Position numbers and translations under genes: made by a program. 64,000 bases of DNA. Source: Xanthobacter sp. YC-JY1 (GTDB taxonomy: Bacteria; Pseudomonadota; Alphaproteobacteria; Rhizobiales; Xanthobacteraceae). Below the pieces are notes generated by a model, which saw only the letters and a program-made list of their open reading frames with translations, ran no database searches and had not been told where the DNA came from. Of the stretch, positions 11,834-48,051 are shown piece by piece (the stretch's first letter is position 1; the number at the start of each line of letters is the position of its first letter). Where the stretch lies: assembly GCF_021730305.1 (NCBI RefSeq), contig NZ_CP032674.1:124001-188000 (forward strand), read 5' to 3'.

Positions 11834-11847
11834 TTGATTGGCATCAA
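11834..11847 (+). promoter_or_regulatory. FNR/FixK box of hemA
   Basis: TTGAT-TGGC-ATCAA is a perfect FNR/FixK recognition site. A plausible -10 element, CATAAT, lies at 11868-11873, which puts the box centre at about -41, the class II activator position. hemA starts at 11927. Oxygen-responsive control of hemA by FixK/FnrL is known in Bradyrhizobium and Rhodobacter. Confidence 0.85.
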
Positions 11848-31937: not shown

Positions 31938-32537
31938 TCAGACGAGCCCGGCGAGGATGCCGACGCCGGCCACCGCCACCGCCGCGCCCGCGCCGCGCAC
32001 GAACTTCTCGCCATGCAGCTCGCCGAAGCGGCCGATGGCCATGCCGAGTCCGAGGCCGGCCACGTGGAGGAGCGCGGTGGCCGACATGAAGCCGAGGCCG
32101 TAGGCAAGGCCCGAGGCGTCCGCCGGCATCTCGGCGCCGTGGGCGTGACCGTGGAAGATGGCGAAGAAGCCGACCATGGCCATGGCCGCCGCCAGCGGCG
32201 CCTTGACGCCGAAGGCCACTACGCCGCCGAGCACGATCACCGAGAGCGCGATGCCCAGCTCCACGAAGGGTACGTCGATGCCGGAGATGCCGAGCGCGCC
32301 GCCCACGGCCATCAGGCCGACGAAGGTGGCGGGCACCGCCCACACGGCGCGACCGCCCAGCTGCCAGGCGAAGATGCCCACAGTCACCATGGCGAGCAGG
32401 TGATCGAGGCCGCCGAGGGGGTGGGCGAAGCCGTGGCTGAAGCCGTGGACGTCACCGACGCCGGTATGGGCGAAGGCGAGCTGCGGCAGGAGGGTCAAGG
32501 CTGCAGCGGCGGCTGCCGTGCGGATTGTGCGGTGCAT
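31938..32537 (-). CDS. hupE: HupE/UreJ-type nickel permease
   Basis: This 199-residue protein has a signal-like first segment (TAAAAAALTLLPQLAFAHTG), about six further membrane helices, and the two HupE metal motifs: HPLGGLDHLLAMV near residue 39 and FHGHAHGAEMP near residue 128. HupE is a nickel facilitator for hydrogenase. It follows hypE by 36 bp at the end of the maturation operon, rather than sitting between hupD and hupF as in Rhizobium leguminosarum. This suggests nickel supply is co-expressed with the maturation genes. Confidence 0.93.
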   Translation of the reverse strand: MHRTIRTAAAAAALTLLPQLAFAHTGVGDVHGFSHGFAHPLGGLDHLLAMVTVGIFAWQLGGRAVWAVPATFVGLMAVGGALGISGIDVPFVELGIALSVIVLGGVVAFGVKAPLAAAMAMVGFFAIFHGHAHGAEMPADASGLAYGLGFMSATALLHVAGLGLGMAIGRFGELHGEKFVRGAGAAVAVAGVGILAGLV

Positions 32538-32573
32538 GAAAGTCTCCCCGGTGTTTGAAGGTTTGAAAAGGGT

Positions 32574-33656
32574 TCAGCAGATGCGGGGCAGTTGATCGCC
32601 GACCAGCATGTCGACGATGCGCTCGCCCCCGAAGCGCGTTCTCATGACGACCCGGCCGGGCCGCTCGGACGTGACCTCGCCGATCACCGCCGCCTCGCGG
32701 CCCAGCGGATGGGCGCGGAGCGCGGCCAGCGCCGCCTCCGTCTCCCCGGCGGGCACCACGGCGAGGATCTTGCCCTCATTGGCGAGATAGAGCGGGTCGA
32801 GGCCGAGGATCTCGCAGAAGCCCATCACCTCCGGCCGCATGGGCAGGCTCAGTTCGTCGAGCCGCACGCCGACCTTGCTCGCCTCGGCAAGTTCATTGAC
32901 CACCGCCGCGATGCCGCCGCGCGTGGCGTCGCGCATCATGCGCAGGCCGGGGGCGGCGGCGATCAGCGTGTCGATGAGGCCGTTCAAGGGCGCGCAGTCG
33001 CTCGCGATGGCGGTTTCGAGGGCGAGATCACCGCGGGCGTTGAGGATGGCGGCGCCGTGGTCGCCTAGCAGGCCGTTGACGATCACCCGGTCGCCCGGCC
33101 GCGCCTTCGTCACGCCCACGTCGAGGCCGGCGCGGATGACGCCGATGCCGGTGGTGGTGATGAAGAGCTTGTCGCAGGCGCCGCGCGCCACGACCTTGGT
33201 GTCGCCGGTGGCGATGTCCACCCCCGCCGCATGGGCCGTCTCCGCCATGGAATGGACGACGCGGCGCAGCGTCTCCACCTCCAGCCCCTCCTCGATGATG
33301 ATGGCGCAGGAGAGCGCCACGGGCTTCGCCCCGCCCACCGCGAGGTCGTTCACCGTGCCGCACACGGCGAGCTTGCCGATGTCGCCGCCGGGAAAGAACA
33401 GGGGGTCCACCACGAAGCCGTCGGTGGTGAAGGCGAGCCGGTCGCCCCGCGCCATCAGGGCGGCGAGGTCGAAGCGGGCCTGATCCTCCGGCGCGGCGCG
33501 ACCCGCGCCCGAGAAGGCGGAGAGGAACACGTCATCGATGAGATCACGCATGGCGCTGCCGCCGCCGCCATGGGCGAGCGTCACGATCTTCTGCGTCAGC
33601 GGCCGCCGGCGCGCGGCAGCGGGGGGTGCGACGGGGATGGCGGTCGAGATGTTCAT
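32574..33656 (-). CDS. hypE: Hydrogenase maturation protein HypE
   Basis: This 360-residue protein is the PurM-like ATPase that dehydrates a carbamoyl group on its own C-terminal cysteine to thiocyanate, making the CN ligand of the NiFe site. The C-terminus is PRIC with the essential terminal Cys, and TLAHGGGGSAMRDLI near residue 26 is the N-terminal signature. ATG 33656 overlaps the hypD stop by 4 bp, which fixes the start; the frame open upstream is hypD antiframe. HypE needs HypF for carbamoylation, and hypF is not in this window. Confidence 0.96.
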   Translation of the reverse strand: MNISTAIPVAPPAAARRRPLTQKIVTLAHGGGGSAMRDLIDDVFLSAFSGAGRAAPEDQARFDLAALMARGDRLAFTTDGFVVDPLFFPGGDIGKLAVCGTVNDLAVGGAKPVALSCAIIIEEGLEVETLRRVVHSMAETAHAAGVDIATGDTKVVARGACDKLFITTTGIGVIRAGLDVGVTKARPGDRVIVNGLLGDHGAAILNARGDLALETAIASDCAPLNGLIDTLIAAAPGLRMMRDATRGGIAAVVNELAEASKVGVRLDELSLPMRPEVMGFCEILGLDPLYLANEGKILAVVPAGETEAALAALRAHPLGREAAVIGEVTSERPGRVVMRTRFGGERIVDMLVGDQLPRIC

Positions 33657-34777
33657 GCGGCCTCTCCCCGTATACCGCCATATTGATAGTAAGCCGCGCA
33701 AGAACCTTCGGACGACACCATCAGCGCGCCGAGCGGCGTCTCCGGCGTGCAGCCCTTGCCGAACTCCGGACAGGCCCACGGCTTTGCGGCGCCGGTGAGC
33801 ACCTCGCCGCAGCGGCACTGGGCGGGATCGGCCACCTTGATGTCCGGCACGGAGAAGCGCTTTTCCGCATCGAAGGCCGCATAGGGCGCCGTCAGCCGCA
33901 CGCCCGAGCCGGCGATGGAGCCGAGGCCGCGCCACTCGAACGTCTCGCGTGGCTCATAGACCTCCTGAACCGCCCGGAGCGCGGCCGGGTTGCCGTGCTC
34001 CGGCACGACGCGGGCATACTGATTCTCGATCCGCGCCTGACCGGCCTCGATCTGCCGGAGCACCATGAGCAGGGATTGCAGGAGGTCGATGGGCTCGAAG
34101 CCCGACACCACCAGCGGCCGGCCGAACTCTTCCGCGATGAAGCGATAGGGCGCCGTGCCGATGACCATGGAGACATGCCCGGGCCCGATGAAGCCGTCGA
34201 TGCCGAGGTCCGGCTGCTCCAGCAAAGCGCGCAGCGTCGGGATGATGGTGATGTGGTTGCAGAAGAGGGAAAAGTTCGTCACGCCCTCGCGCAGGGCCCG
34301 CTGCACGGTCAGCGCCGTGGAGGGCATGGTGGTCTCGAAGCCGAGGCCGAAGAACACCACCTCGCGGTCGGGGTTGCGCTTGGCCAGCGTGAGCGCATCC
34401 AGCGGCGAATAGACCATGCGCACGTCGGCGCCGTCGGCCTTGGCCTGCAGCAGGCTCTTCTTCGAGCCGGGCACGCGCATGGCGTCGCCGAAGGTGGTGA
34501 AGATCACCTCCGGCCGCTCGGCGATGTCCACGCAATCATCCACCCGGCCCATGGGCAGCACGCAGACGGGGCAGCCCGGGCCGTGGACGAATTCCACGAG
34601 GTCGGGCAGCAGGCCTTCCAGCCCATAGCGGAAGATGGCGTGGGTGTGCCCGCCGCACACCTCCATGATGGCGAAGGGCTTGTCGCGTCCGCGCTCGAGG
34701 CGGGCGGCGATGGCGCCGATCTCCTTCACCAGGGCCGAGGCGAGGGCGGGGTCGCGGAACTCGTCGACGAAGCGCAT
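33653..34777 (-). CDS. hypD: Hydrogenase maturation protein HypD
   Basis: This 374-residue iron-sulfur protein is the scaffold on which the Fe(CN)2CO group is assembled with HypC. MEVCGGHTHAIFRYG carries the conserved Cys near residue 41, GPGCPVCVLP follows near residue 68, and GFETTMPSTAL and FIGPGHVSMVIG are family blocks. C-terminal cysteines (QCRCGEVLTG...WACPEFGKGCTPETPLGACMVS-like) bind the 4Fe-4S cluster, here with LGALMVSSEGSC. The start at 34777 lies 11 bp after hypC. The end overlaps hypE by ATGA. Confidence 0.96.
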   Translation of the reverse strand: MRFVDEFRDPALASALVKEIGAIAARLERGRDKPFAIMEVCGGHTHAIFRYGLEGLLPDLVEFVHGPGCPVCVLPMGRVDDCVDIAERPEVIFTTFGDAMRVPGSKKSLLQAKADGADVRMVYSPLDALTLAKRNPDREVVFFGLGFETTMPSTALTVQRALREGVTNFSLFCNHITIIPTLRALLEQPDLGIDGFIGPGHVSMVIGTAPYRFIAEEFGRPLVVSGFEPIDLLQSLLMVLRQIEAGQARIENQYARVVPEHGNPAALRAVQEVYEPRETFEWRGLGSIAGSGVRLTAPYAAFDAEKRFSVPDIKVADPAQCRCGEVLTGAAKPWACPEFGKGCTPETPLGALMVSSEGSCAAYYQYGGIRGEAA

Positions 34778-34788
34778 GTCCGTCCTCC

Positions 34789-35088
34789 TCAGCGCGGGGT
34801 GGAAAGCAGCTCGACGCTGCCTTGGGTGAGCGCTTCCATCTCGGCCGCCGCCTCGCCGATCTCGGAGAGCACCTTGAGGGTGGCGGCGGCCTCCTCCTCG
34901 TCGATGCGGCTCATGGCGAAGCCCACATGGACCAGCACCCAGGCGCCCACGAGGTCGTCCAGCGGCGCGCCGGGCTCGGCCACGCACACCACGTCCACGG
35001 TGCGCCGGACGCCGGAAACGTCCACCACGCACAGCATGGCCTCCGCGTCGGCGACGGCGACGATCTGTCCGGGAATGCCGAGGCACAT
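34789..35088 (-). CDS. hypC: Hydrogenase assembly chaperone HypC
   Basis: This 99-residue OB-fold chaperone begins MCLGIPGQIVAV, where the Cys2 after Met removal is the iron-transfer residue. GAWVLVHVGFAMSRIDEEEAAATLKVL is the standard C-terminal part. It shuttles the Fe(CN)2CO unit from HypD to the large-subunit precursor. A second paralogue, HupF, is encoded 6 kb upstream in the same cluster. The gap of about 200 bp to hoxA is filled by a nested palindrome. Confidence 0.95.
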   Translation of the reverse strand: MCLGIPGQIVAVADAEAMLCVVDVSGVRRTVDVVCVAEPGAPLDDLVGAWVLVHVGFAMSRIDEEEAAATLKVLSEIGEAAAEMEALTQGSVELLSTPR

Positions 35089-35135
35089 GGGCTGGCTCCT
35101 ACTGGCGAGGCGGGGGAGGGGTTACGAACAATCCG

Positions 35136-35241
35136 TCATGGCCGGGCTTGTCCCGGCCATCCACGTGGATCGGCCGGGCACAAAGGACGAACAGGTACGC
35201 AGTCGGGTCGACGTGGATGCCCGGCACAAGGCCGGGCATGA
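35136..35241. repeat. Nested intergenic palindrome, copy 2, between hoxA and hypC
   Basis: A 31-base arm at 35136-35166 and a reverse-complement arm at 35211-35241 match except at four positions. The differences are compensatory G/C exchanges, so each arm keeps its own stem (ATGGCCGGG...CCCGGCCAT and ATGCCCGGC...GCCGGGCAT). It interrupts the hydrogenase maturation operon and could act as an RNA stability or attenuation element. Confidence 0.85.
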
Positions 35242-35285
35242 CGGCGGCTTCGGCTTCATCGACGTTTGCGTCCATCCCCATCCCC

Positions 35286-36761
35286 TCAATGCTGGCCAAA
35301 CGCCCCACCGCGGGCGATGCCGTAGCGGTCGAGCTTGGCGCGCAGGCCAACGCGGGAGAGGCCTAGCTCCTCGGCCGCGCGGCTCTTGTTCCAGCGGCAG
35401 CGCACCAGGGTTTCGGTGAGGATGGTGGCCTCCATGCGCTCGATGCGGTCCTTCAGCGGTCCGCTGTCGGGCAAGGAGATGGAGGAATTGGCCAGCGTCT
35501 CCGGCGCCCGCGTCTCGGCCGCGGCGGCGCGCACCACGTGGGGGGAGAGGAGATCGGCGGAGAGGCTGTCGCGCTCGGCGAGCACCAGCATGCGGGTGAT
35601 TTCGTTCTGCAATTCGCGCACGTTGCCCGGCCAGTCATAGGCGGACATGCAGGCGAGGGTCTCCTCGCTGAAGCCGCGCACGCGCTTGCCGTGCTGGCTG
35701 GAGAGCGCATCGAGCACGCTCTGGGCGAGGACCGGAATGTCCGCCCGTCGCTCGCGCAGCGCCGGCAGGGTCAGCACCATGGCCGAGAGGCGATAATAGA
35801 GGTCTTCGCGGAAGCGGGCACGGGCCACCTCGCCCTTGAGGTCGCGATGGGTGGCGGCGAGCACGCGGACATTCACCCGCTTCGCCTCGTTGGAACCCAC
35901 GGGGCGGATCTCGCCCTCCTGCAGGAAGCGCAGCAGCTTCACCTGGAAGGCGGGGGAGACGTCGCCGATCTCGTCGAGAAAGATGGTGCCTCCGTCCGCC
36001 TGGTCGAGCAGGCCGATGCGGGTCACGTGGGCGCCGGTGAACGAGCCCTTCTTGTGGCCGAACAGCTCGGATTCCAGCAACTCGTCCGGGATCGCCCCGC
36101 AATTCACCGCGAAGAAGGGCCGGTCCGAGCGCAGGCTGGAATAATGGATGGCGCGGGCGAGCAGTTCCTTGCCGGTGCCGGTCTCGCCATGGATCAACAC
36201 GGGCACGTCGAAGGTGGCCACCTGAGCCGCGCGGGTGCAGACCTGCGAGAGCGGGCTGCCGGGGGCGCGCACCAAGGTGTCGAAGTGGAAATTCTGCTTC
36301 ACCCGCGCTTCCAGCGCGCCGAGGCGGGCCTCGGCATTGGAGGCGGTGAGCTTCATCTCCAGATTGAGCCGCTCATGGTCGCGCTGGAGCTGGAACAGGT
36401 GCGCGGCATTGCGCGCGGCCAGCAGCAGCTGGTCCGGATGCCAGGGCTTGGGGATGAACTGGTAGATGCCGGCGTCGTTGATGGCGCCGATCATGTCCTC
36501 CGGCTCCGTGTAGCCGGTGACGATGATGCGCAAGATGTCCGGCCAGCGCTCGCGCACTTCGGTGAGCAGCGCGACGCCGGAGGTCTGCGGCATGCGCTGG
36601 TCGCAGAAGATCACCTGGATCCACTCATTCTCCAGGATGCGCCGCGCCTCCTCCGCATTGAGGGCGGTGAAGACGTCGAACTCCTCGTCCAGCACGCGGG
36701 CGATGACCTCCACCGAGCGCGGCTCGTCATCCACAACGAGGATGGCCGGGCGCCGGTTCAT
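35286..36761 (-). CDS. hoxA: NtrC-family hydrogenase regulator HoxA/HupR
   Basis: This 491-residue regulator has a receiver domain (acidic pair D11-D12, phospho-acceptor D54 in [10 protein letters not shown]105) and an AAA+ domain. Walker A GETGTGKE is at 192-199 and the sigma-54 contact loop GSFTGA at 239-244. A Fis-type HTH follows near the C-terminus ([24 protein letters not shown]). It lies between hypB and hypC and overlaps hypB by 4 bp (ATGA). HoxA/HupR proteins activate hydrogenase structural genes from sigma-54 promoters. The matching promoter is seen upstream of hupS. No partner kinase HupT or sensory hydrogenase HupUV is in the window. Confidence 0.94.
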
Positions 36762-37747
36762 CGCGCGCCTCCCGCCGCCGCGCGCAGGGCCGAAGCTTCC
36801 GCTTCGCGGGCGCTCGCAAGGTCGTTGAGGCGGACGGCGCGGGCGGCTTCGAGCCAGGCGATCCAGCGGGCGAGGCCGATCTCGCCGCGGGACGAGGTGG
36901 TGAGGATGTCCGCCGTCGGGTTGATGCGGCGGATGTTGGCCTCCAGCGTCGCCATGTCCGCATCCACATAAGGCGCAAGGTCGGCCTTGGTGATGAGGAC
37001 GAGGTCGGCACCCTCGAAGATGTCGGGATATTTGAGCGGCTTGTCCTCGCCCTCGGCCACCGAGATCAACGTGACGCGCTTGGTCTCGCCGAGGTCGAAG
37101 GCGGCGGGGCAGACGAGGTTGCCCACATTCTCGATGAAGAGCACGCCGCCGGGCGGCAAGGGCAGCTTTTCCAGCGCGTGGCCGACCATGTGGGCGTCGA
37201 GGTGGCAGCCCTTGCCGGTGTTGATCTGCACCGCCGGGGTGCCCACCGCGCGGATGCGGGCGGCGTCGTTGTCGGTCTGCTGGTCGCCCTCGATGACGGC
37301 GCAGGGGATGCGGCCGGAAAGCGCCTTCAACGTCTCCACCAGAAGGGTGGTCTTGCCGGCGCCGGGGCCGGAGAGGAGGTTCAGCGCCAGCACGCCCGCA
37401 GCATCGAGCCGGGTGCGGTTGCGGCCGGCATAATCGTCGTTCTTGGCGAGGATGGAGGTCTCGATCTCCACCATGCGCGCCTGGGAGAGCCCCGGCGCAT
37501 GGGCGCGGGCGGGGCCGGTGCCATAGTCCAGCGTGCCGGCGTCGGGCGCGGGGGCGTGATCGTCGTGGTGATGATGGTGGTGACCATGGTCGTGGTCATG
37601 CCCATGGCCGTGATCGTGCCCGTGCGCATGGCTGTGGGTGGTGCCATCCGCATGGGTGTGGGTGTGCGGATGGGCGTGATCGTGGGAATGGCCGTGGGCC
37701 TCGGAAATGGTGGCGCCGTCGCCGCTGCAGCCGCAGACCGTGCACAT
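36758..37747 (-). CDS. hypB: Hydrogenase nickel-incorporation GTPase HypB
   Basis: This 329-residue GTPase inserts nickel into the large subunit with HypA. The N-terminus MCTVCGC is the high-affinity nickel motif. Residues about 18-66 are a long His/Asp/Gly-rich region ([20 protein letters not shown] and more) that stores nickel. The G-domain has GPGAGKTT (P-loop), [23 protein letters not shown] and the metal-site [19 protein letters not shown] 37747 overlaps the hypA stop by one base. The low-complexity DNA at 37545-37690 is this coding His tract, not a repeat element. Confidence 0.97.
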
Positions 37748-38088
37748 CACATCACCTCCAGGTCTTTGATCTTCATCTCGGTGCCGCCATTGGGCACGAG
37801 CCGTTCCCCGCCGCATTTTGGGCAGGGGGCGAGGCGGTGGGCCAGCGGCACGGTGTCGGAGCAGTCGAAGCACCAGGCGGTGCCGTCCTCCTCCAGAACC
37901 ACCAGCTCGGCGCCGTCCGCCAGCGAGCCTTTCGTCACCACGTCGAAGCCGAAGCGCAGCGCTTCCACCTCGATGCCGGCGAAGCGGCCGATGGCGAGGC
38001 GCACGCGGGTGACGCGCGAGAAATTCTGCGCCTTCGCCGCCTCTTCCATTGCCGAGAGCAGGCTCTCGCACACGGCCATCTCATGCAT
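37747..38088 (-). CDS. hypA: Hydrogenase nickel-incorporation protein HypA
   Basis: This 113-residue metallochaperone begins [11 protein letters not shown], where the MHE motif binds nickel, and carries a zinc-binding pair of CxxC motifs (WCFDC and CPKC) with [16 protein letters not shown] at the end. It works with HypB. The start at 38088 lies inside the end of hupK (8-bp overlap). An in-frame extension upstream exists but would add 24 residues that the family lacks. Confidence 0.95.
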
Positions 38089-39055
38089 AAGCGGGCTCCG
38101 TGGCGAAGGAGAGGGTGACGGGCACGCAGGGATTGATGGCGCAAACGAGCAGCGGCGCAAGCCACCGCGTCCGCCAGCCGGGGGAAAGGGCGGCGAAGGC
38201 CCGCTCCAGAAGTCCGCCCGGGGCGAGGTTCCAGGCGCTGGGGGAGAGGATGCGATAGGCCTTCACGCGCCCAGCCTCCACCGCCGCCCGATGCCCGAGC
38301 AGCCCGCGCGCGGCCGGCGCAATGCCGGCCGGAAGGGGCGGCGCAGGGCGGGGGGCGAGATGGGCAAGGCCATCCACCAGCCGGGCAAGGAGGCGCACGA
38401 ACAGGCTCGGCCCTTCCGACGCGAGCAGCGCGGCCATGAGCGGCGTCGCCGCGACGCGCCCCAGCGCCCCGGTCTCGCGGTGGGAGCCGATGGCGGCGGG
38501 GGGCCGCGTGAGGGTGGCCGCGAGCACGTCCGCGCTCAGCTCCGGCAGATGCACGCGCCCTTCCGCGGGATCGGCCTCGCGGATGCGGGCGAAGACGCGG
38601 GCGGTGGGCGTCGGCGCCGCGGCGAGCCACGTCTCCAGCTCGGCGGGGGAGAAAGAGGACAGGTCGCTGGCGTCCCCCACCAGAGCCGCATGGAAGGCGG
38701 CGCCGTCCGGCCGGGCGAGGAGGGCCAGCGCAGTGCGGTCCGGCGCCATGCCCAGCGCCACCGGCAAGGTGTGGAGAAGGGCGAGCGCGTGGTCGCGCAC
38801 CGTCTCGCGCGCCATCATCGCGGCATCGGCTGCGACGGGCAGGCCGAGCGCGGAGCGGGCGGCGAAGGCATGGGCCGCGCCGCACAGGTTGAAGACGAGG
38901 GGGGCGAGCCGCGCCGCCTCCTCCGGCGTGCGGCCGATAAGGGCCGCTGCGGGGTCCGGCCCCTCCTCCCGCGCCACGCGCCAGCCGCCCGCGCGCCCGT
39001 CCGGCACGAGGGTGAGGCTGCGGAGTGCGCGGGGCAGGGGCGCGCGCGAGTTCAT
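38081..39055 (-). CDS. hupK: Hydrogenase accessory protein HupK
   Basis: This 324-residue protein is the degenerate relative of the hydrogenase large subunit known as HupK/HoxV, a scaffold for active-site assembly. The near-C-terminal CAINPCVPVTLSFA mimics the large-subunit DPCxxC region with one cysteine kept. NLCGAAHAFAA near residue 57 echoes the N-terminal CGxC box with a single Cys. It overlaps both neighbours (4 bp with the HupJ-like gene, 8 bp with hypA), which fits the usual hup order. Confidence 0.88.
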   Translation of the reverse strand: MNSRAPLPRALRSLTLVPDGRAGGWRVAREEGPDPAAALIGRTPEEAARLAPLVFNLCGAAHAFAARSALGLPVAADAAMMARETVRDHALALLHTLPVALGMAPDRTALALLARPDGAAFHAALVGDASDLSSFSPAELETWLAAAPTPTARVFARIREADPAEGRVHLPELSADVLAATLTRPPAAIGSHRETGALGRVAATPLMAALLASEGPSLFVRLLARLVDGLAHLAPRPAPPLPAGIAPAARGLLGHRAAVEAGRVKAYRILSPSAWNLAPGGLLERAFAALSPGWRTRWLAPLLVCAINPCVPVTLSFATEPAYA

Positions 39056-39942
39056 GCCGCGCCGTCCCGCATTTCTTCCGCGCGCAGGTCTTCCGTGCCA
39101 GCGCGGGGGCCGAGGATGAGCGAGCGGCGGGACAGTTCCGCCGGCGCCTCGCGGCGGGGAGCCTCGGTCTCCGGGGCGGCCGCGGCCGTCTCGGCCGCGA
39201 CACGGGCGGCTTCCTCGGCCTCCGCCCGGCGGCGGATTTCGCCGGAGCGGGTGCCGTCCTCCCGGTTGCCGGCATCGAGCAGGCCGGGCATCACCGCCTC
39301 GGCCGTCTCCACCGCCTGCAGCATGGAGGAGAAATCGAACATGGGGGAGAACAGCGAGCAGGCCTTGTAGGGACCGGTCTCAGGCCGGTTGGCGGCGAGG
39401 AACTCGTAGGTGCCCGAGGGAAAGTCGATCAGCTCCTTCTCGCCGGTCCTCAGCTGCGACCAGTCGTCGGCGGCGTTGGGCAGGAGCACGATGTTCATGA
39501 ACCAGGGCGTCACCAGCACGCCCATCACCCGCCCTGCATGGATGCGGAAGCCCACCGCCTTCACCCCGAGGGTGCCGTTGACGAAGGGCACGCCCTTCAT
39601 CTTCGCCGCATGGATCTCGCGGAACACCGCCTCGAACAGGCCGGGCGCCTCGGCGAGCTGGCGCTCCAGCGCCGGATCGACCAGCGAGGGGCGCATCACG
39701 GCCGGCAGGTCCGGCGTGCCGCCATCGAGCACCATGAAGGCATCACGGGCGCCGTCGCAGACCGGGCAGCGCCAGTGATCAGGCAGCGCGTTGAACGGCG
39801 TGCCGGGGGGAATCTGCCACGCCTCGCACCCCTCGGCGGGGTCGTAGACGTGCCAGCAGACCTTGCATTCCAGCCGCGCGGTGGGGGCAAGCCGCGCGCG
39901 ATCGCCGAGATAGGAGCCGTCGAAGAAGCTGTGCTGGGACAT
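39052..39942 (-). CDS. hupJ: Rubredoxin (HupI)-HupJ/HybE fusion protein
   Basis: This 296-residue protein joins two hydrogenase accessory proteins that are separate genes in Rhizobium and Bradyrhizobium. Residues about 20-75 are a rubredoxin like HupI, with CKVCW (27-31) and CPVCD as the iron-binding CxxC pairs and WQIPPGTPFNALPDHWRC between. Residues about 85-225 are the HupJ/HybE chaperone domain (GVPFVNGTLGVKAVGF, VTPWFMNIVLLPNA, FPSGTYEFLAA). An Ala/Glu-rich low-complexity tail follows. The start at 39942 precedes the rubredoxin fold directly. It ends in a 4-bp overlap with hupK. The fusion would tether the redox and chaperone roles. Confidence 0.88.
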   Translation of the reverse strand: MSQHSFFDGSYLGDRARLAPTARLECKVCWHVYDPAEGCEAWQIPPGTPFNALPDHWRCPVCDGARDAFMVLDGGTPDLPAVMRPSLVDPALERQLAEAPGLFEAVFREIHAAKMKGVPFVNGTLGVKAVGFRIHAGRVMGVLVTPWFMNIVLLPNAADDWSQLRTGEKELIDFPSGTYEFLAANRPETGPYKACSLFSPMFDFSSMLQAVETAEAVMPGLLDAGNREDGTRSGEIRRRAEAEEAARVAAETAAAAPETEAPRREAPAELSRRSLILGPRAGTEDLRAEEMRDGAA

Positions 39943-39950
39943 ATCTTGCC

Positions 39951-40805
39951 TCACCGCATGGCCGCCAGCACCTCGACGAGGCGCTCGGCGGAATCGGCGA
40001 TGTCCTCGCGGGCGGCGCAGGCCACTTCCGGCACCTCGCTCACCTCGATGGTGTCGAGGATGAGCATGTCCTGCGAATTGTAGAAGCGCACCCGCCAGAC
40101 GTGCCGCGTGCCCGTGGCGTCGATGCGGCAATTGCCGTAGCCGCGCGAAAGCACGGTGGTCGCGCCGGGGCCGAGGCGCGCGTCCAGCATGGCGAGGTCT
40201 TCCGGCGTGTGCGGCAGCAGGGAGAGGTTGATGACGTGGGCGCCATCGCCGGGCTGGCGGTTGCGGGAGCGGTCGTCGATCTCCACCAGCAGAGCCGGGG
40301 CGTTGAAGATGCCGGGGGCGGGCACATCGAGGCCGGAGAGGTCGATGCCCGCGCCACCACCGAACGCCCGCACCAGCGCACCGCGCGGGAAGGCGCCGAT
40401 CTCGATGCGGTCGGTGCCCGCCGCGCCGCGCAGGCGCCAGACACCGGCGAAGGTGGCTTCCTGGATCTCCATGGCGCGGGCATCGCCGCGGCCTTCCACC
40501 TTCACCGCCACCTCACCCTCGCCCATGGCCTCGTCCACCAAAGCGACGTTGGCGGCGTCGAGATGGGCGAGGTCGATGATGCGGCTCTCGCCCGGCTGCC
40601 AGCTTTCCAGCGCGGCGATCACCTCCTCCAGCACGGCGAAGGCGGGGGCGTAGCGGTCCTTGTCCTCGACCTCGATGAAGGGCGCCTCGAAGGTGCGCAT
40701 GCCCGAGGGCATCTGGAGATAGGCGAGGCCCTCGTCCTCGGCGGTGGACTGGCTGCCGGGGCCGAAGCCGATGGGGGGCTGTGTGGCGAAGGGGGACGAA
40801 GACAT
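39951..40805 (-). CDS. hupH: Hydrogenase expression/formation protein HupH
   Basis: This 284-residue protein matches HupH/HoxQ/HyaF. Diagnostic blocks are YLQMPSGMRTFEAPF near residue 30, VINLSLLPHTPEDLAMLDARLGPGATTVLSRGYGNCRIDATGTRHVWRVRFYNSQDMLILDTIEV in the C-terminal half, and LAMLDARLGPG in particular. It is implicated in maturation of the small subunit or its iron-sulfur clusters under oxygen. It sits 12 bp after hupG and 8 bp before the HupIJ fusion. Confidence 0.93.
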   Translation of the reverse strand: MSSSPFATQPPIGFGPGSQSTAEDEGLAYLQMPSGMRTFEAPFIEVEDKDRYAPAFAVLEEVIAALESWQPGESRIIDLAHLDAANVALVDEAMGEGEVAVKVEGRGDARAMEIQEATFAGVWRLRGAAGTDRIEIGAFPRGALVRAFGGGAGIDLSGLDVPAPGIFNAPALLVEIDDRSRNRQPGDGAHVINLSLLPHTPEDLAMLDARLGPGATTVLSRGYGNCRIDATGTRHVWRVRFYNSQDMLILDTIEVSEVPEVACAAREDIADSAERLVEVLAAMR

Positions 40806-40817
40806 TGGGGGCAGCCT

Positions 40818-41222
40818 TCAGTGGGTGGCGGCGGAGGGGGCGGCGAGCAGGGCGCGGAGCTTGTCGAGATATTCGTCCCAGTCCCGCATGCGGGCGATGG
40901 CGCCCACCGGCTGGCCGGCGCGCAGCACCACGATGGCGGGGAGCGCGAGGCTCATGGTTTCCCGCAGCGCCGCTTCCGCCTTGGGACCGGCGATGGCGAT
41001 GCCGATGGCCTCCTGGCCGCCCAGCGCCTTCACCAGCTCGGGCAGCACCACGGCGATGTCCGGGCTCTCCAGATGCGCCTTGCCGTGGGAGGGCAGGAAC
41101 AGGAAATGGTCGCGGGCATCGAGGGTTGCGGCATCCTCCAGCGTCTCGACGGAGGGCCAGGCGCCGGCCTCGCTGAGGCGGCGGACGAGGGGGTGGAGAT
41201 CGGGGGCGGCGACCGGGGGCAT
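40818..41222 (-). CDS. hupG: Hydrogenase accessory protein HupG (HyaE/HoxO type)
   Basis: This 134-residue protein has the thioredoxin-like fold of the HyaE/HupG family without the CxxC motif. It shows LDARDHFLFLPSHGKAHLESPDIAVVLPELVKAL and LPAIVVLRAGQPVGAIARMRDWDEYL. In related systems it binds the Tat signal of the small subunit. ATG 41222 overlaps the hupF stop by one base. The frame remains open upstream through hupF antisense, which is not coding. Confidence 0.88.
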   Translation of the reverse strand: MPPVAAPDLHPLVRRLSEAGAWPSVETLEDAATLDARDHFLFLPSHGKAHLESPDIAVVLPELVKALGGQEAIGIAIAGPKAEAALRETMSLALPAIVVLRAGQPVGAIARMRDWDEYLDKLRALLAAPSAATH

Positions 41223-41554
41223 CAGGCTTCCTTTCGGCCGGCGGCGTAGGCCGCGGCGAGATGGGGCGGCAGGACCGGCTCGCGGTCCACGAGATCGGCG
41301 AAGGCGCGGTCGATGAGGGCGGTGTCGGCCTCCCCCGCCATGATGGCGGCGACGCCGGAGAGGGCTTCGGTGATCAACTGCGCCTCCTCCGCATCGAGAC
41401 GGCGGCGGGCGGTGCCCTGGAAGACGAGGACGTGATCGCCGACCCCGGCCTCGGGCACGAGGGAGAGATCCACCCGCTCCTCCCGCCCCTCGGCCGAGCA
41501 GAGCGCGTAGGGGCCTTCGAGGCGTTCGATGCGCATGGGCAGGCCGAGACACAT
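41222..41554 (-). CDS. hupF: HypC-family chaperone HupF
   Basis: This 110-residue protein starts MCLGLPMRIERLEG, the HypC/HupF motif with the metal-binding Cys2. VGDHVLVFQGTARRRLDAEEAQLITEALSGV is the usual core. It has a longer C-terminal tail than HypC, as HupF proteins do. In Rhizobium HupF protects the large subunit during maturation at higher oxygen. It lies 3 bp after hupD. Confidence 0.93.
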   Translation of the reverse strand: MCLGLPMRIERLEGPYALCSAEGREERVDLSLVPEAGVGDHVLVFQGTARRRLDAEEAQLITEALSGVAAIMAGEADTALIDRAFADLVDREPVLPPHLAAAYAAGRKEA

Positions 41555-41557
41555 GGC

Positions 41558-42184
41558 TCAGGCCTCACCCCGAACGAGCACGCGCGCATCGCCGATGCGG
41601 CAGGCGTCCTCGGCGCTCGGGCGCTCGGTCTCATAGGGATCGCGGGCGACTGCGGCGGTGACGAGCGAGCCTTCACCCGCGCGGGGTTCCGGCACGATGC
41701 CGAACTCGTCCTTGAGGATGGCGAGCACCTTGCGCGCGGCGGGCTCGATCTGCGCGGCGACGGTGGCGGTGAGGCCGCCGCCATAATCGTCCAGCACTTC
41801 CGGCTGCACACCCACCAGCACGATGCGGCCGGGTGTGTGGCCGCGCAGCGCGAGAAGACCGAGGATTTCCTGGAAGCCGGTCTGGTGCAGGCTCACCTTG
41901 CGGGCAGCGAGCACGGCCGGCACGTCGGCATCGGCGCGGATGTGGACGGTGCCCGGCGGGGAGCCGAAATCCACGGCATCGACGATGACGACGCCTTCAG
42001 CTTCTTCGAGATAGGGCAGGAGATAGAGGCCCTGGGTGCCGCCATCGAGCAGCGTCACCGGCTCGGGGAAAGTGTAGGCGCGATCCAGGGTTTCCAGAAC
42101 CCGCACGCCGAAGCCCTCGTCGGCCCACAAGATGTTGCCGATGCCGAGCACCAGAATGCGCGCGCAAATCCGTTCGCCGTCCAT
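41558..42184 (-). CDS. hupD: Hydrogenase maturation protease HupD
   Basis: This 208-residue endopeptidase removes the C-terminal peptide of the large subunit after nickel insertion. The metal-binding Glu and Asp are in GIGNILWADEGFGVRVLE (E near 23) and VDAVDF (near 70), with His in VSLHQTGFQEIL (near 100). It is the first gene of the second hydrogenase transcript and has its own FNR/FixK box 110 bp upstream. A tail of about 40 residues extends beyond the compact HybD-type fold. Confidence 0.94.
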   Translation of the reverse strand: MDGERICARILVLGIGNILWADEGFGVRVLETLDRAYTFPEPVTLLDGGTQGLYLLPYLEEAEGVVIVDAVDFGSPPGTVHIRADADVPAVLAARKVSLHQTGFQEILGLLALRGHTPGRIVLVGVQPEVLDDYGGGLTATVAAQIEPAARKVLAILKDEFGIVPEPRAGEGSLVTAAVARDPYETERPSAEDACRIGDARVLVRGEA

Positions 42185-42293
42185 GCGACGCCGCCCTCCC
42201 TGCGATGGCCTCCCACGACGGTCTGCCGCCGTCTGATTTCGAGTTCGACTAAATCAAGGACCGTGCCAATCCGGCTGGAAGCCGGCCAACCGG

Positions 42294-42307
42294 TTGATTC
42301 GGATCAA
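42294..42307 (-). promoter_or_regulatory. FNR/FixK box upstream of hupD
   Basis: TTGAT-TCGG-ATCAA is a perfect FNR/FixK site 110 bp before the hupD start. A class II arrangement would place transcription start near 42259; the -10 element there (GATTGG) is poor, so the exact start is unsure. Confidence 0.82.
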
Positions 42308-42529
42308 CAGTGGGCAGAGAGGGTGGGGCGGGGTTGCTGGCCGATATTGTAAGGAGTGTGATCGATATTGGCTGAAAATGGAATCTTGATTTCCATATTC
42401 CGCCATCCGGGATGGGTTTTCGCCGGTTCGGGAGAGGGCATGCCTGCGACGATCGTTAGCAGGTGCAGCGCGAAGTGGAATGCGTCGCACCATGTCTGCC
42501 GGCCGTCCTGCGCCGGAGCCCGGCCCACG

Positions 42530-42558
42530 AAAAAGGGCGCAGCCGAAGCCACGCCCTC
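42530..42558 (-). terminator. Intrinsic terminator after hupC
   Basis: Read on the minus strand, AGGGCG and CGCCCT enclose TGGCTTCGGCTG (itself with a GC-TTCG-GC tip), followed by TTTT. It lies about 40 bp past the hupC stop. Confidence 0.82.
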
Positions 42559-42594
42559 TTGTCGTTCTGGCCCTGTCCGGTCGGCCGTGGCCGC

Positions 42595-43350
42595 TCAGTC
42601 CGGATCGTCGTCCCGGAAGGTGCGGTGGCCGTTGGTGATGGCCGAGACCATGGACTGGCGGGACATGATGTCCTCGCGGATCACCGAATAGACGTGGATG
42701 ATGATGAACACGATGATCACCCACATGCCTAGGTGATGCAGCGTGTGCACCTGCATGGAGCCGCCCAGCAGCGGGATGACCCAGCCGAACAGCTTCGCCT
42801 GCCACGAGCCGAGCCCCGTGCCCTCCGAATAGAGGGCGAAGCCGGTGAGGATCATGAAGGCGAGGCCCAGCACCATCACGAAGAACAGGAACACCTGCGC
42901 CAGCGGATTGTGCCCCACGAACTTCAGCGGGCGCGGCTTGAGGAAGGCATACCACTGCACCTCGGTGAAGAAGCCCTTCCAGAAGCTCTTCCGCCAGAAG
43001 GGGAAGGTGAACAGCTCCCGGGAGTACTTGTTGCCGAAGAACGCCCAGATGATGCGCCCCAGGAAGCCCACGGCGAGGATATAGCCCGCCGCGAAGTGCA
43101 CGAAGCGGATTGTGCCCATGAGGTAATGGGCGCTCGCCTCGCCCGACAGGGTGGGGAAGGGCGAGCCGATGAAGTAGCCGGTGACGCACAGCACCAGGAT
43201 GGACAGGGCATTCACCCAGTGCCACAGGCGCACCGGCGCCTCATAGACATAGACGGTGGTCAGCTTCTTTCCACCGGCGATCACCCGCGCGACCTCGGTG
43301 GGGGGCGCCGCCGGAGGGGCGGTGCCGGGGGAGAGGGAGGTGTCCGTCAT
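42595..43350 (-). CDS. hupC: Hydrogenase b-type cytochrome subunit HupC
   Basis: This 251-residue membrane protein anchors HupSL and passes electrons to quinone through two haems b. VYVYEAPVRLWHWVNALSILVLCVTGYFIG gives the first haem-ligand His and helix, and HFAAGYILAVGFLGRIIWAFFGN gives the second. QVHTLHHLGMWVIIVFIIIHVYSVIREDIMSRQSMVSAITNGHRTFRDD is the conserved final helix and tail. About five membrane helices are seen. It is the last gene of hupSLC, 12 bp after hupL. Confidence 0.95.
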   Translation of the reverse strand: MTDTSLSPGTAPPAAPPTEVARVIAGGKKLTTVYVYEAPVRLWHWVNALSILVLCVTGYFIGSPFPTLSGEASAHYLMGTIRFVHFAAGYILAVGFLGRIIWAFFGNKYSRELFTFPFWRKSFWKGFFTEVQWYAFLKPRPLKFVGHNPLAQVFLFFVMVLGLAFMILTGFALYSEGTGLGSWQAKLFGWVIPLLGGSMQVHTLHHLGMWVIIVFIIIHVYSVIREDIMSRQSMVSAITNGHRTFRDDDPD

Positions 43351-43362
43351 GGCCGCCTCCCC

Positions 43363-45177
43363 TCAGCGCACGGTGACGCGCGCCAGCTCAGCCCCGTCGT
43401 CGGACATGACGTGGGTGGAGCAGGCGAGGCACGGGTCGAAGGAGTGGAGGGTGCGCAGGATCTCCACCGGCTCCTCGGGGCGCTGCATGGGCGTGTTCAT
43501 GAGGGAGGCCTCGAACGCGCCGATATTGCCCTTGGGATCACGCGGCCCGCCGTTCCAGGTGGTGGGCACCACGCACTGGTAGTTCTCGATCCGCCCGTCC
43601 TTGATCTTGATCCAGTGGCCGAGGCCGCCGCGCGGCGCCGCCACGGTGCCGACGCCCTTGGCCTCCTTCGGCCAGGTGGCGGGGTCCCACTTCTCCATGT
43701 TGGCGGTGGAGGTGTCGCCGGCCTTGATGTTGGCGATGAGGTGGTCGAAGTCGTCCAGCATCATCTTGGCGCAGTAATGCGCCTCCAGCGCCCGGGCGAG
43801 GGTGCGGCCGATGGTGGTCGGCAGCGCCTGCTTGGCGGTGAGGTTGGTGCCGGCGAGCGTGTTGAACGTGCCGAGCGCCTCGTCCACCTGCCCCTTCACG
43901 TAATCGACGCCCTGGGCATAAGCGAGGATGTAGCGGGCGAGCGGGCCCACCTCCACCGCATTGCCCTTCCAGCGCGGCGCCTTGATCCAGGAATACTTGG
44001 CGTTCTCGTCCACCGCCTCGATGTTGGTGCGGGTGCCCTTGGCGTTGGGGCCGAGCTTGTACTGCGGGTCGGTGACGCCGTCCCACGGATGCAGGCCCTT
44101 GTCGTTGTTGCCCTCGCCGTAGGTGTACCAGGAGTGCGCCACGAACTCCTGCACCTGCGCCGGGTCGCGCGGGTCGATGGGGTGCACCTCGTTCCAGTTG
44201 CCGTTGAGGATGACGCCGCCGGGCAGGCGGTCGGTCTTCTTCTGGCCCTGGATGGCTTCGTAATCGCCATAGTCCATGACGTTCTGGCCGGAGAGGCCGC
44301 CGCCATAGAGCCAGCCCTTGTAGAAGCTCGCGATGGCGATCACGTCCGGCACATAGACGTTCTGCGAGAACTCGAAGGCTTCCTGAAGCTTCAGCTTGAC
44401 GAAGTTCAGCCGCTCCATGTTGAGCGGGGCGCCGGCGGCCATGTCGCCGTTCATGTTGATGGCGCAGGGCACGCCGCCGACAAGATAGTTTGGATGCGGG
44501 TTCTTGCCGCCGAAGATGGTGTGGACCTTCACGATCTCGCGCTGGAAGTCGAGGGCCTCCAGATAGTGCGTCACCGCCAGCAGGTCCGCTTCCGGCGGCA
44601 GCAGATAGGCCGGGTTGTCCCAATAGCCGTTCTTGAAGATGCCGAGCTGTCCACTCTCCACGAACTTCTTCAGCCGGTTCTGCACGTCGCGGAAATAGCC
44701 GGGCGAGGACTTGGAGTGGGCGGAGATGGACTGCTGCAGCACCGAAGTCGCCTTCGGGTCCGCCTTGAGCGCATTCACCGGGTTCACCCAGTCCAGTGCG
44801 TGCAGGTGGTAGAAGTGGACGACGTGGTCGTGCCACTGCAGCACCTTGGCCATGATCTCGCGGATCAGGAAGGCGTTGTTGGGGATCTTGATCTGGAGTG
44901 CATCCTCCACCGCGCGCACCGAAGTGAGCGCGTGGCAGCCGGTGCACACGCCGCAGATGCGTTCCACGAAGGCCCAGGCGTCGCGCGGGTCGCGGCCCTT
45001 GAGGATCACTTCCAGCCCGCGCCACATGGTGCCGGTGGAGACCGCGTTGCGGATGATGTTGTTGGAATCGACATTCACCTCGCAGCGCATGTGGCCTTCG
45101 ATGCGGGTGACCGGATCGACGACGATGCGCTTGCCGGAGGTGTCGAGGGAAAAGCCGTTCGGCGTCTGGATGGTCAC
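43363..45177 (-). CDS. hupL: Uptake [NiFe]-hydrogenase large subunit HupL
   Basis: This 604-residue subunit holds the NiFe centre of a membrane-bound group 1 uptake hydrogenase. The N-terminal metal box is [10 protein letters not shown] with C75 and C78. The C-terminal box DPCLACSTH has C583 and C586, and HupD is expected to cut after H589, removing the 15-residue tail [15 protein letters not shown]. FxxRICGVC and the DPCLACSTH sequence are typical of the oxygen-exposed proteobacterial enzymes. The start overlaps the hupS stop by 4 bp. Confidence 0.98.
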
Positions 45178-46280
45178 TTCTCGCCTCCCTCGGTCTTCTG
45201 GGCACCGTCGGTGTTCTTGTGCTGGGCGCGCTTCAGCGCGCTGATGGCGGCATGGGCCGCGACGCCCGCGCCCACCGCGCCGGCGGCGATCAGGCCCACC
45301 TGGTCCGCATTGGCTTCCACGCCGAAGCCGGAGCCCTTCAGGTCAGCGAGGCGCGCATACCACGAGCCCTTGTCCCAGAAGCCGTCTTCCGAGCAGCCGA
45401 TGCAGCCGTGGCCGGCCTGGATGGGGAAGGAGACGCCGTCGTTCCAGCGCACGGTGGAGCAGGCGTTGTAGGTGGTCGGGCCCTTGCAGCCCACCTTGTA
45501 GAGGCAATAGCCCTTGCGCGCGCCCTCGTCGTCGAAGCTCTCGACGTACTGGCCGGCGTCGAAGTGCGGCCGGCGATAGCATTTGTCGTGGATGCGCTGG
45601 GAATAGAACATCAGCGGCCGGCCCTGGCGGTCGAGGGCGGGGAGCTGGTCGAAGGTGAGCATGTAGGTGATGACGCCGGTCATCACCTCGGCGATGGGCG
45701 GGCAGCCCGGCACCTTGATGATGGGCTTGTCGAAGATCACCTCGTGCACGGGCGTGGCGCGGGTGGGGTTGGGGCGCGCGGCCTGCACGCAGCCATAGGA
45801 GGCGCAGGAGCCCCAGGAGATGATGGCTTTCGCGTCCTTCGCCACCTTCTTCAGCTGGTCCACGAAGGGCTTGCCGCCGATGATGCAATACATGCCATCC
45901 TCGTTCAGCGGCGGGTTTCCCTCCACCGCGAGGATGTAGTTGCCCTTGTACTTGGTCATCACCTCGTCGAGGATCGCTTCCGCCTGATGGCCGGCGGAGG
46001 CCATGAGGGTGTCGTCATAGTCGAGCGAGATCATCGACAGCACCACATCCTTCACCAGAGGATGCGCCGAGCGGATGAAGCTCTCCGAGCAGCAGGTGCA
46101 TTCAAGGCCATGCAGCCACAGCACCGGGGTGCGCGGCTTGGTCTCCATGGCCATGGCGATCTGCGGCGCGAACTCCGGCCCGAGGCCGAGGGCCGCCGCC
46201 GTGAGCGAGCAGTATTTCAGGAACGAACGGCGGGTGATGCCCTGCCGCCGCATGACCTCATAGAACGTCTCGAGGGCCAT
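45174..46280 (-). CDS. hupS: Uptake [NiFe]-hydrogenase small subunit HupS
   Basis: This 368-residue iron-sulfur subunit has a twin-arginine signal (RRSFLK, residues 17-22) that exports the folded HupSL dimer. [16 protein letters not shown] contains the proximal-cluster cysteines, including the extra Cys pair of oxygen-tolerant types (CTCC, C61, C63, C64). [19 protein letters not shown] and [19 protein letters not shown] hold medial and distal ligands. A C-terminal hydrophobic helix ([20 protein letters not shown]) anchors it in the membrane. It is preceded by a sigma-54 promoter. Confidence 0.98.
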
Positions 46281-46349
46281 AAAGGCGTCCCCCCTTGGCT
46301 GACCTTGTCCTCCTCACCGACGTCGAGGCCGGGGGATTGGAACCGTTTC

Positions 46350-46365
46350 AGCAAGGGGTGTGCCA
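46350..46365 (-). promoter_or_regulatory. Sigma-54 promoter of hupSLC
   Basis: On the minus strand, TGGCAC-ACCCC-TTGCT matches the sigma-54 -24/-12 consensus exactly, with the required GG to GC spacing. Transcription would start near 46338, about 58 bp before the hupS ATG. HoxA, encoded at 35286-36761, is the likely activator. Confidence 0.9.
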
Positions 46366-46473
46366 GAGGGGGAGGGTGAGGGATTTCAGGGGGTTGGGTG
46401 CGGTGGTGGGGCGGAAGGGGTGGATGGGGGGTGAGCGGTTTGAGGGGGGAGGTGGAAAGGGGGTTATCGGGGC

Positions 46474-48051
46474 TTATAGATCGAGTTGTGCTGATCCAGC
46501 AAAAATACCGATAACGTCTGCAAGGGTCGCTGCATCCTCGGCCTTAAAACTGCCCTGGCAGCTGGGGCAAGTGATGTCGCCTTCAGCGGCGATCCGCAGG
46601 CTTTGACAATGAGGGCAAAGGACAAGAAAACTCTCAACAGCCTCCTCGAGACTAACGTCCGACACAGCAGCCACAGCCAGCCTTGGGTCAACGATCCCAT
46701 AGAGATATTGTGGCCTATTTCCGGGGTTTGGAACGTCTCCAATCTTAGAAACGGCACCAGATGCTTGCCATTTTTGAACCTTAGATCGGGCCGCTTGCTG
46801 CGATATACGAAAGACGTCGTTTGATAGCGTGCTAATTGTGAACGTTAAAAGATCAACTTTCTTTATATCAGAAAAATGCTCACCATACAGCTCTCGCGCT
46901 CGCTCAGCAGAAAATGCCATTATTGCCGATTTAATCGTCCGATACTCAATTTTAGAAGTAAATCTTCCCGTTCGGGTGTGTTCGTCGATTATTTTTTTGC
47001 AGATTCGGACCATATCTCTAGGAGAACCGTAGGCAAAATAAGCGACAAGCTTGTGCATGTTGTACGGTTGATTATCGGCCAACAGCTGATCGAGCCGACT
47101 GACTCGGCCGCCCGAGTAGCTTTCAAGGCGGCGTTGAAGTACCTTTTCCAACTCGTCGACTGACCAGTTGAGGGTATATTCCAGTAGGCGGTCTGGCCGT
47201 CCCCCGGCAGCTTGATAGTGCTCCTTCACCTTATCCCAAAGGAAGAATTTGAACGCAACCCCTGGTGTTTCGAGAAGTGGAAGATCAATTAAAACAGATT
47301 CGAGAAATTCAAATGCGCGCTCCGCATCGGTTGCTGTAAATGTTATTTCATCAACACGATCAACCAATATATAAACAGAAGTGAATCCTATCTTTCGAAC
47401 AAAAGCAACGAGCGACGAGAATTTGAACCGGATGCTCTCAGATGCCATTTTAACATCTGGTGCTATATTTTCAAGTTTTCCGAATTCATACTTAGCTGAT
47501 ATAGCATTAATCAAGCCGGTAATAGTTCCGCCATACTTCTTCCACAAGTCGTAAGCTATATCGTCCATTGACTTAATGGAGCTAATAGATTCCTTGAATT
47601 TTTCAGAAGTAAGTGGCCCCAAAAGCTCTCTTGATGTCTGCACCAGAAGCATTTTATCAGTTGCGTCTATTTGTGACGGATCAATCTTTCCCTTCTCAAT
47701 TTCAAGTAGAATTGCAATCAACAGAGTCCTAGATATATTGTTCAAATGGAACTCTACAGAGACTTTTTTCTCCCTTGGCAGGCTGTCAATCGGGAATGTG
47801 TCGTAAGATATGCACAAGAAATTTGATTCAGGCTCTGCGCTCTTCTTTTCAATCATAATCTTTTGCGCTGTCTTCCCGCCGCCACGGGGGGCAAAGACGA
47901 CGTTACTTTTTGGTGTTCTGGGGTCGCCGACGACTGCTGGAAAAAACGGGGGCTCAACAAAATATTGGTCGATGGTGGGCTCGTCCGCAGCATTCGTCGA
48001 TGCAAACGGGTCTTTGTCGAATCCGAAACCCGACAGGAACTCAGACGACAT
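46474..48051 (-). CDS. P-loop ATPase (Sll1717-like) with C-terminal zinc ribbon
   Basis: This 525-residue protein stands out by low GC and different codon use. Walker A is APRGGGKT (54-61) and the Walker B-like strand is VYILVDRVDE (226-235), as in STAND/AAA-related ATPases of the Sll1717 type. A winged-helix-like region follows (LLTFTISTLSNDVFRISQQAARSKVQKWQASGAVSK). The end holds a zinc ribbon with C479, C482, C495 and C498. The N-terminus (FGFDKDPFASTNAADE) is shared by that family. GGAGGGG precedes ATG 48051. It sits alone between the SRP RNA gene and the hupS promoter, consistent with horizontal gain. The function is unknown; a stress or phage-defence role is only a possibility. Confidence 0.8.
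   Translation of the reverse strand: MSSEFLSGFGFDKDPFASTNAADEPTIDQYFVEPPFFPAVVGDPRTPKSNVVFAPRGGGKTAQKIMIEKKSAEPESNFLCISYDTFPIDSLPREKKVSVEFHLNNISRTLLIAILLEIEKGKIDPSQIDATDKMLLVQTSRELLGPLTSEKFKESISSIKSMDDIAYDLWKKYGGTITGLINAISAKYEFGKLENIAPDVKMASESIRFKFSSLVAFVRKIGFTSVYILVDRVDEITFTATDAERAFEFLESVLIDLPLLETPGVAFKFFLWDKVKEHYQAAGGRPDRLLEYTLNWSVDELEKVLQRRLESYSGGRVSRLDQLLADNQPYNMHKLVAYFAYGSPRDMVRICKKIIDEHTRTGRFTSKIEYRTIKSAIMAFSAERARELYGEHFSDIKKVDLLTFTISTLSNDVFRISQQAARSKVQKWQASGAVSKIGDVPNPGNRPQYLYGIVDPRLAVAAVSDVSLEEAVESFLVLCPHCQSLRIAAEGDITCPSCQGSFKAEDAATLADVIGIFAGSAQLDL

Follow-up and report, generated by a model that had tools for sequence, protein, structure and literature searches.

Predicted sigma-54 promoters before both hydrogenase gene units of Xanthobacter sp. 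YC-JY1, one of them carrying an FNR/FixK-type box

In Cupriavidus necator, the response regulator HoxA acts on sigma-54 promoters and is accompanied by genes for an H2-sensing hydrogenase (HoxBC) and a histidine kinase (HoxJ); HoxA is active with sigma-54 in its unphosphorylated form and integration host factor (IHF) may take part (PMC10073562). The hup/hyp region of Rhizobium leguminosarum is described as having two promoters, a sigma-54 promoter for hupSL, under NifA, and another at hypB that carries an FNR-type box (PMC3534401). In Azorhizobium caulinodans, a close relative of the organism considered here, hup, hyp and hoxA are found in one cluster and hupUV has been reported in a polycistronic operon with hupSL (PMC2443382, PMC2650096). 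Here we analyse the hydrogenase (hup) cluster of Xanthobacter sp. YC-JY1, which has a hupSLC unit and a second, maturation unit that starts with hupD and contains hoxA. The window is the whole 64,000-nucleotide (nt) stretch analysed, positions 124001–188000 of a single 5.39 Mb contig.

Unlike the C. necator relay, the sensor and kinase genes of this genome lie far from the hup cluster, and the promoter of the maturation unit has a dyad of its own. In contrast to R. leguminosarum, the FNR-type box sits on a sigma-54-type promoter before hupD, and no NifA site (TGT-N10-ACA, up to one mismatch) was found in 400 nt at the window hupS or hupD, and such a site was rejected. The hupUV genes lie elsewhere in the Xanthobacter loci read, not with hupSL as in A. 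caulinodans. A convergence of HoxA and FixK inputs is reportedly also found at the hupS promoter of Bradyrhizobium japonicum (HoxA and FixK2, in work ascribed to Durmowicz and Maier in 1998), where the FixK region is said to lie near the start; in the window it would be hupD that shows it, with the box at about −58.

The original prediction for this cluster assigned hupSLC to a sigma-54/HoxA unit and the genes from hupD onwards to an FNR/FixK unit, a model that is not new in kind, because R. leguminosarum has a comparable promoter pair (PMC3534401). The division into two transcription units is supported by our analysis, whereas the regulatory split is not: hupD has a sigma-54-type element of its own, better kept in the genus than the FNR-type box, and a perfect dyad. 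We consider it likely that both units have sigma-54 promoters served by HoxA, with FixK as a lineage-specific modifier.

Sigma-54-type elements and an activator dyad before hupD and hupS

The −24/−12 element before hupD (Table 1) is exact except for the A at −12, has a dyad upstream and puts the predicted transcription start near 42242; one copy of rpoN was found in the genome. Comparisons were made in a family sample of 198 genomes, 44 of which have HupD, and hupD loci were read in 30 cases, comprising 11 genomes of the genus Xanthobacter and 19 other family loci. At up to two mismatches, the element precedes hupD in all 11 genus genomes, at 78–86 nt from its start; among the 19 other loci it was seen in 10, at 52–84 nt.

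Aligning the upstream regions of hand-chosen rows on the −24 element exposed the dyad TGGAA-N7-TTCCA, which is perfect in six of the 11 genus genomes. Its spacer is distinctive: the N7 form (up to one mismatch) occurs in 39 of 95 hupD regions and 29 of 73 hupS regions, many of the latter from beta- and gammaproteobacteria, compared with 0–8 regions for other spacers of 2–13 (loci with divergent hupS and hupD are counted in both sets and some species twice). A composite of the dyad, 95–125 nt and TGGCAY-N5-TTG gave 12 matches in 11 of the 198 family genomes and its reversed control gave none. Eleven of the 12 matches lie upstream of hupD. The remaining match, upstream of hypF and divergent from hupT, comes from a different genus, and the hupD of that genome is one of the 11; the genomes of this test overlap those inspected earlier. 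The composite was not found in 33 of the 44 HupD-bearing genomes, because the dyad is degenerate, the spacing different or the element lacking.

We rate these two analyses as better tests than counts in a set of 24 rows, which was chosen by hand and left out the element-free loci L146–L154 and near-duplicates such as L127, L138 and L140. In this set the hupD element was found in 23 rows (0.80 expected) and the dyad, at up to two mismatches, also in 23 (1.99 expected; perfect in 17, the window included), the motif definitions being partly derived from the same sequences, so that these and the other expectations given for the set are no independent test. The row missed for the element was L144, where it starts at 52 nt and the searched region ended at 40 nt; the two-mismatch dyads scored for L126 and L132 sit elsewhere. 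The dyad, which is associated with hup and hyp genes, is probably the HoxA site; hoxA lies in the hupD unit and encodes a protein with a sigma-54 activator domain, which makes HoxA an obvious choice of binding protein.

Before hupS, the exact −24/−12 element of the original prediction is indeed present, matching TGGCAC-N5-TTGC(A/T) without mismatch and with GG and GC at the exact spacing; the predicted start lies near 46339. By number alone such elements are near chance in the window (three at up to one mismatch vs. 1.56 expected, with 23 of 100 shuffles as good). An exact element was also seen upstream of hupS in L039, L041–L043, L045–L047, L051, L053 and L054 and, under the start positions used, not in L044, L048–L050 and L052. 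The hupS dyad was found in 10 of 16 chosen rows (0.76 expected). The better dyad in this genome is at hupD, the opposite of the picture originally drawn.

Several observations weigh against sigma-54 and HoxA at both units. The element was not found before hupD in nine of the 30 family loci, seven of which have a hupC–hupD gap of 31–66 nt. Within the genus, the hupD dyad is two mismatches off in three of the 11 genomes (L128, L132 and L133) and poor in two (L126 and L134). No full dyad was found at the window hupS, where the best match has three mismatches and 45% of shuffles are as good. The everted spacer-7 form is also somewhat frequent (11 of 95 hupD and 7 of 73 hupS regions), and the dyad alone was rejected as a genome-wide signal, with four sites vs. 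nine control sites; a tighter pattern missed the window's own site and gave one site elsewhere vs. two control sites. Finally, A at −12 is rare: in a set of 186 potential RpoN promoters from Rhizobiales, nine have it (PMC3538637). It also occurs in the nifH promoters of R. etli, R. leguminosarum and Mesorhizobium loti, which are strongly expressed, although they are regulated by NifA and not, as we propose for hupD, by HoxA (PMC3538637). The M. loti paper considers that this A is possibly read solely by a second RpoN (PMC3538637), and caution is due at hupD because rpoN is single here.

Could the hupD element be a decayed, inactive relic, with hupD transcribed by polymerase that reads on from hupSLC through the terminator? 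The A at −12, the element-free loci and the fact that terminators can leak speak for this, yet TGGCA(C/T)-N5-TTG(A/T) is kept in place before hupD across genera, the dyad and the element stand together before hupD in 11 genomes, and the hairpin terminator after hupC, with its inverted repeat and T-run, is kept in all 10 aligned rows; we regard the relic as very unlikely. The terminator itself, proposed originally, withstood scrutiny (81-nt fold with z of −3.9, none of 200 shuffles being equally stable), although the hairpin was not among the output of a generic terminator scanner. The short hairpin in the predicted hupD leader has a covariation score of 0.244, compared with 0.140 for shuffled alignments and reached by none of 500 shuffles; the count of pairs in which both bases have changed is no higher than in shuffled alignments, of which 406 of 500 attain it.

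The FNR/FixK-type box and the IHF-like site at hupD and nifH

The perfect TTGAT-N4-ATCAA box before hupD, another element of the original prediction, is real as a sequence and belongs to a class that is enriched in the genome, with 14 perfect boxes in 5.39 Mb and none for the pattern read backwards; at up to one mismatch the window has four vs. 0.44 expected (one of 100 shuffles as good). Nine neighbours of the genomic boxes were scanned and include hemA, nifH, nifB and ppk2. The candidate for the regulator is the product of a FixK-like gene at 5281970–5282797 of the contig (233 bits against the FixK model, below its cut-off of 300); the genome also encodes other proteins of the CRP/FNR family. 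Conservation of the hupD box is limited: among the 11 genus genomes it is perfect in three, namely the window genome and its two nearest sampled relatives, has two mismatches in five and is absent from its place in three. In the 24 chosen rows it was found four times at up to one mismatch (0.27 expected), twice perfect at the window's place and twice elsewhere.

It was proposed that FNR/FixK drives hupD–hypE, and with them hoxA, at low oxygen without sigma-54, and that HoxA then drives hupSLC alone. The perfect box, its enrichment in the genome, the FixK-like gene and the retention of the box in two near relatives, even though one of these, L126, differs at many of the bases around it, agree with this, as does the precedent of R. 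leguminosarum, which is described as having NifA-dependent hupSL and FnrN-type hypBFCDEX promoters (PMC3534401). Nevertheless, it leaves aside the conserved sigma-54 element and dyad at hupD, and the full box is absent in eight of the 11 genus genomes. In FNR class II promoters the box is centred about 41.5 nt before the start and the −10 hexamer lies 22 nt further on. At that distance from the hupD box the best hexamer scores 2/6, a weak test since the other 13 boxes of the genome reach only 1–4/6 in all cases but one (the hemA box, at 5/6). The hupD promoter has the box of a class II promoter and no good −10 at the class II distance. Further, no sigma-70-like promoter was found in 41500–46700, though chance expectation is only 0.8. 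Control of the hupD unit by FNR/FixK without sigma-54 therefore appears improbable.

The box shares its place with an IHF-like site. The IHF consensus is WATCAANNNNTTR, and at hupD it is matched perfectly in eight of the 11 genus genomes and within one mismatch in two more, always at the same place; at up to one mismatch the site was found in 11 of the 24 chosen rows (0.50 expected). It lies between the proposed enhancer and the −24 element, as would suit an IHF-assisted promoter, and at the shared place is better conserved than the FNR box. The TTGAT-N4-ATCAA palindrome may hence be an accidental extension of a conserved IHF site with no FNR-type protein at hupD, which would be compatible with HoxA acting on both units. 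Consistent with this, five of the genus genomes with the IHF-like site have two mismatches in the FNR box, both in its left half.

Evidence to the contrary comes from nifH. When the 198 genomes were searched for a perfect FNR-type box 12–40 nt in front of TGGCAC-N5-TTG, 13 matches were obtained, all of them from 10 genomes of the genus Xanthobacter, and the control gave none. Three of these are the hupD boxes; the other ten precede nifH, with a single box per genome in 10 of the 11 genus genomes, 24–25 nt upstream of the −24 element. For nifH those 10 genomes were examined, and the NifH reading frame was confirmed in full or, in three truncated loci, over 43–44 residues. In the nifH promoter of L029/L168 (C1:366952–367003) the distance is 24 nt. 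The constant halves of the nifH boxes are an outcome of a search that required perfect halves, the finding being their presence in 10 of 11 genomes. Their middle bases differ, and four of the 10 keep the palindrome while the IHF consensus is two mismatches off, which argues against an accidental palindrome. We still hold an accident at hupD to be quite possible, if short of probable.

FixK may thus act on sigma-54 promoters in Xanthobacter, and the hupD box probably feeds a FixK-type input into a sigma-54 promoter, where FixK could activate, replace IHF as the bender or block IHF. More speculative, and in our view rather doubtful, is the idea that a FixK-type protein serves as an oxygen-gated DNA bender at sigma-54 promoters, replacing or competing with IHF, and that the hupD of one sublineage acquired a nifH-like arrangement; if true, low oxygen would directly tune enhancer looping at the nitrogenase and the hydrogenase maturation genes alike. 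In the open-licence literature searched, we found neither work on the hupD promoter of Xanthobacter nor a description of a FixK box at nifH in this genus, which is weak evidence of novelty.

Other boxes deserve mention. Two further Xanthobacter genomes, L133 and L134, have a one-mismatch FNR-like box 65–66 nt before hupD, just 3' of the −12, where it would rather block. In the window, a perfect box on the plus strand (11834–11847) lies some 80 nt upstream of the gene for a 5-aminolevulinate synthase (11927–13210) and has a good −10, CATAAT (5/6); it is likely an ordinary FixK/FNR target. In L034, a perfect box (C1:3572173–3572186) lies 3 nt upstream of the one-mismatch sigma-54 element TGGCACGCGCCCTGCA, within a possible coding frame.

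Genes of the cluster and the H2-sensing relay

The window HupL shares 97% identity with its counterparts in Xanthobacter autotrophicus DSM 432 and in two further Xanthobacter records, and hupSLC were identified by NCBIfam TIGR00391, PRK10170 (below cut-off) and TIGR02125. The second unit runs hupD, hupF, a HyaE-like gene (hupG), hupH, hupI/J (rubredoxin plus HybE-like), a hupK-like gene, hypA, hypB and hoxA, followed by a small open reading frame in the position of hypC (without a Pfam match), hypD, hypE and a hupE-like gene; its close packing suggests that it would be read as one transcript. The location of hoxA inside this unit was predicted correctly. HoxA has a receiver domain (Asp54 by position), a sigma-54 activator AAA domain with the GSFTGA loop and a Fis-type helix-turn-helix.

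Table 1. Features of the hup cluster (window positions)
Feature	Position	Strand	Description
hupS–hupL–hupC unit	42595..46280	minus	hupS 45174–46280, hupL 43363–45177, hupC 42595–43350
Second unit	31938..42184	minus	gene order hupD to hupE-like
hoxA	35286..36761	minus	after hypB, inside second unit; domain matches
−24/−12 (sigma-54) element of hupS, TGGCACACCCCTTGCT	46350..46365	minus	exact match, 85 nt before hupS start
CTTTCCA, conserved half of activator site upstream of hupS	46453..46459	minus	alignment of relatives; no full dyad
Terminator-like hairpin and U-run 3' of hupC	42530..42559	minus	GC hairpin; aligned in relatives
Activator dyad TGGAAATCAAGATTCCA, proposed HoxA enhancer of hupD unit	42379..42395	minus	perfect; 110 nt upstream of hupD element
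FNR/FixK-type box TTGAT-N4-ATCAA, TTGATTCGGATCAA / TTGATCCGAATCAA	42294..42307	minus	perfect; centre about −58.5 from predicted sigma-54 start
IHF-like site AATCAACCGGTTG (consensus WATCAANNNNTTR)	42287..42299	minus	shares AATCAA with FNR box
−24/−12 element of hupD, TGGCACGGTCCTTGAT	42253..42268	minus	one mismatch, A for C at −12; 84 nt before hupD
Short leader hairpin GACGG..CCGTC, predicted hupD 5' untranslated region	42217..42233	minus	kept with changed bases in several relatives

The absence of a visible HupUV/HupT sensor, noted in the original prediction, is true of the window and not of the genome: hupT, hupU, hupV and hypF lie in this order at 5026181–5032369 of the contig, some 0.5 Mb away from the hup cluster on the assumption of a circular contig, and a missing H2 sensor was rejected on this ground. 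HupT was identified by its PAS and kinase domains together with the position of its gene next to hupU; HupU was found in 13 of the 14 genus genomes searched. The genome thus has a regulatory hydrogenase, a kinase and a regulator, as a HupUV/HupT/HoxA relay requires. In Ancylobacter, Zavarzinia, acetic acid bacteria and others (L044–L048, L051–L055, L066 and L075), hupTUV is found upstream of hupS, in most cases separated from it by hypF. The three named Xanthobacter loci that extend 8.8 kb or more upstream of hupS (L039, L042 and L043) do not have it there. The relay is moved, not lost. The 581 nt before hupT contain no match at up to two mismatches to the FNR box, the −24/−12 element or TGGAAR-N5-YTTCCA, and a regulatory box there was rejected.

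Upstream of hupS, the place that hypF and hupTUV have in other genera is occupied by an open reading frame (46474–48051, minus strand), possibly a later insertion, which has a weak ORC-CDC6-like match (25.1 bits, cut-off 27) and failed a high-GC3 filter.

A proposed circuit

The circuit that we consider likely builds on the observed elements, their positions and conservation, and on genes found in the genome, namely rpoN, hoxA, hupTUV and a fixK-like gene. In the absence of H2, HoxA would be kept inactive by HupT under the control of HupUV; with H2, HupUV would bind it and restrain HupT, leaving HoxA unphosphorylated and active, a phosphorylation logic that we infer from C. necator. HoxA would then bind TGGAA-N7-TTCCA before hupD and, before hupS, a site that is related but weaker, and bending of the DNA, by IHF at its putative site or by a similar protein, would bring it to the −24/−12 elements. 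RpoN polymerase would transcribe hupSLC and, separately, hupD through hypE; with hoxA in the hupD unit, HoxA would raise its own expression in a positive loop. In YC-JY1 and the two relatives sampled closest to it, the FixK/FNR-type box on the IHF-like site would add a low-oxygen input, positive or negative, to the same hupD promoter and would not create a second one.

Such a circuit is of a known kind, its twist being an oxygen-regulator box set into the sigma-54 promoters of hupD and nifH. It would offer a specific candidate enhancer motif and promoter for the hydrogenase maturation genes and, for an H2-oxidising genus, a single testable circuit in place of a story of two switches.

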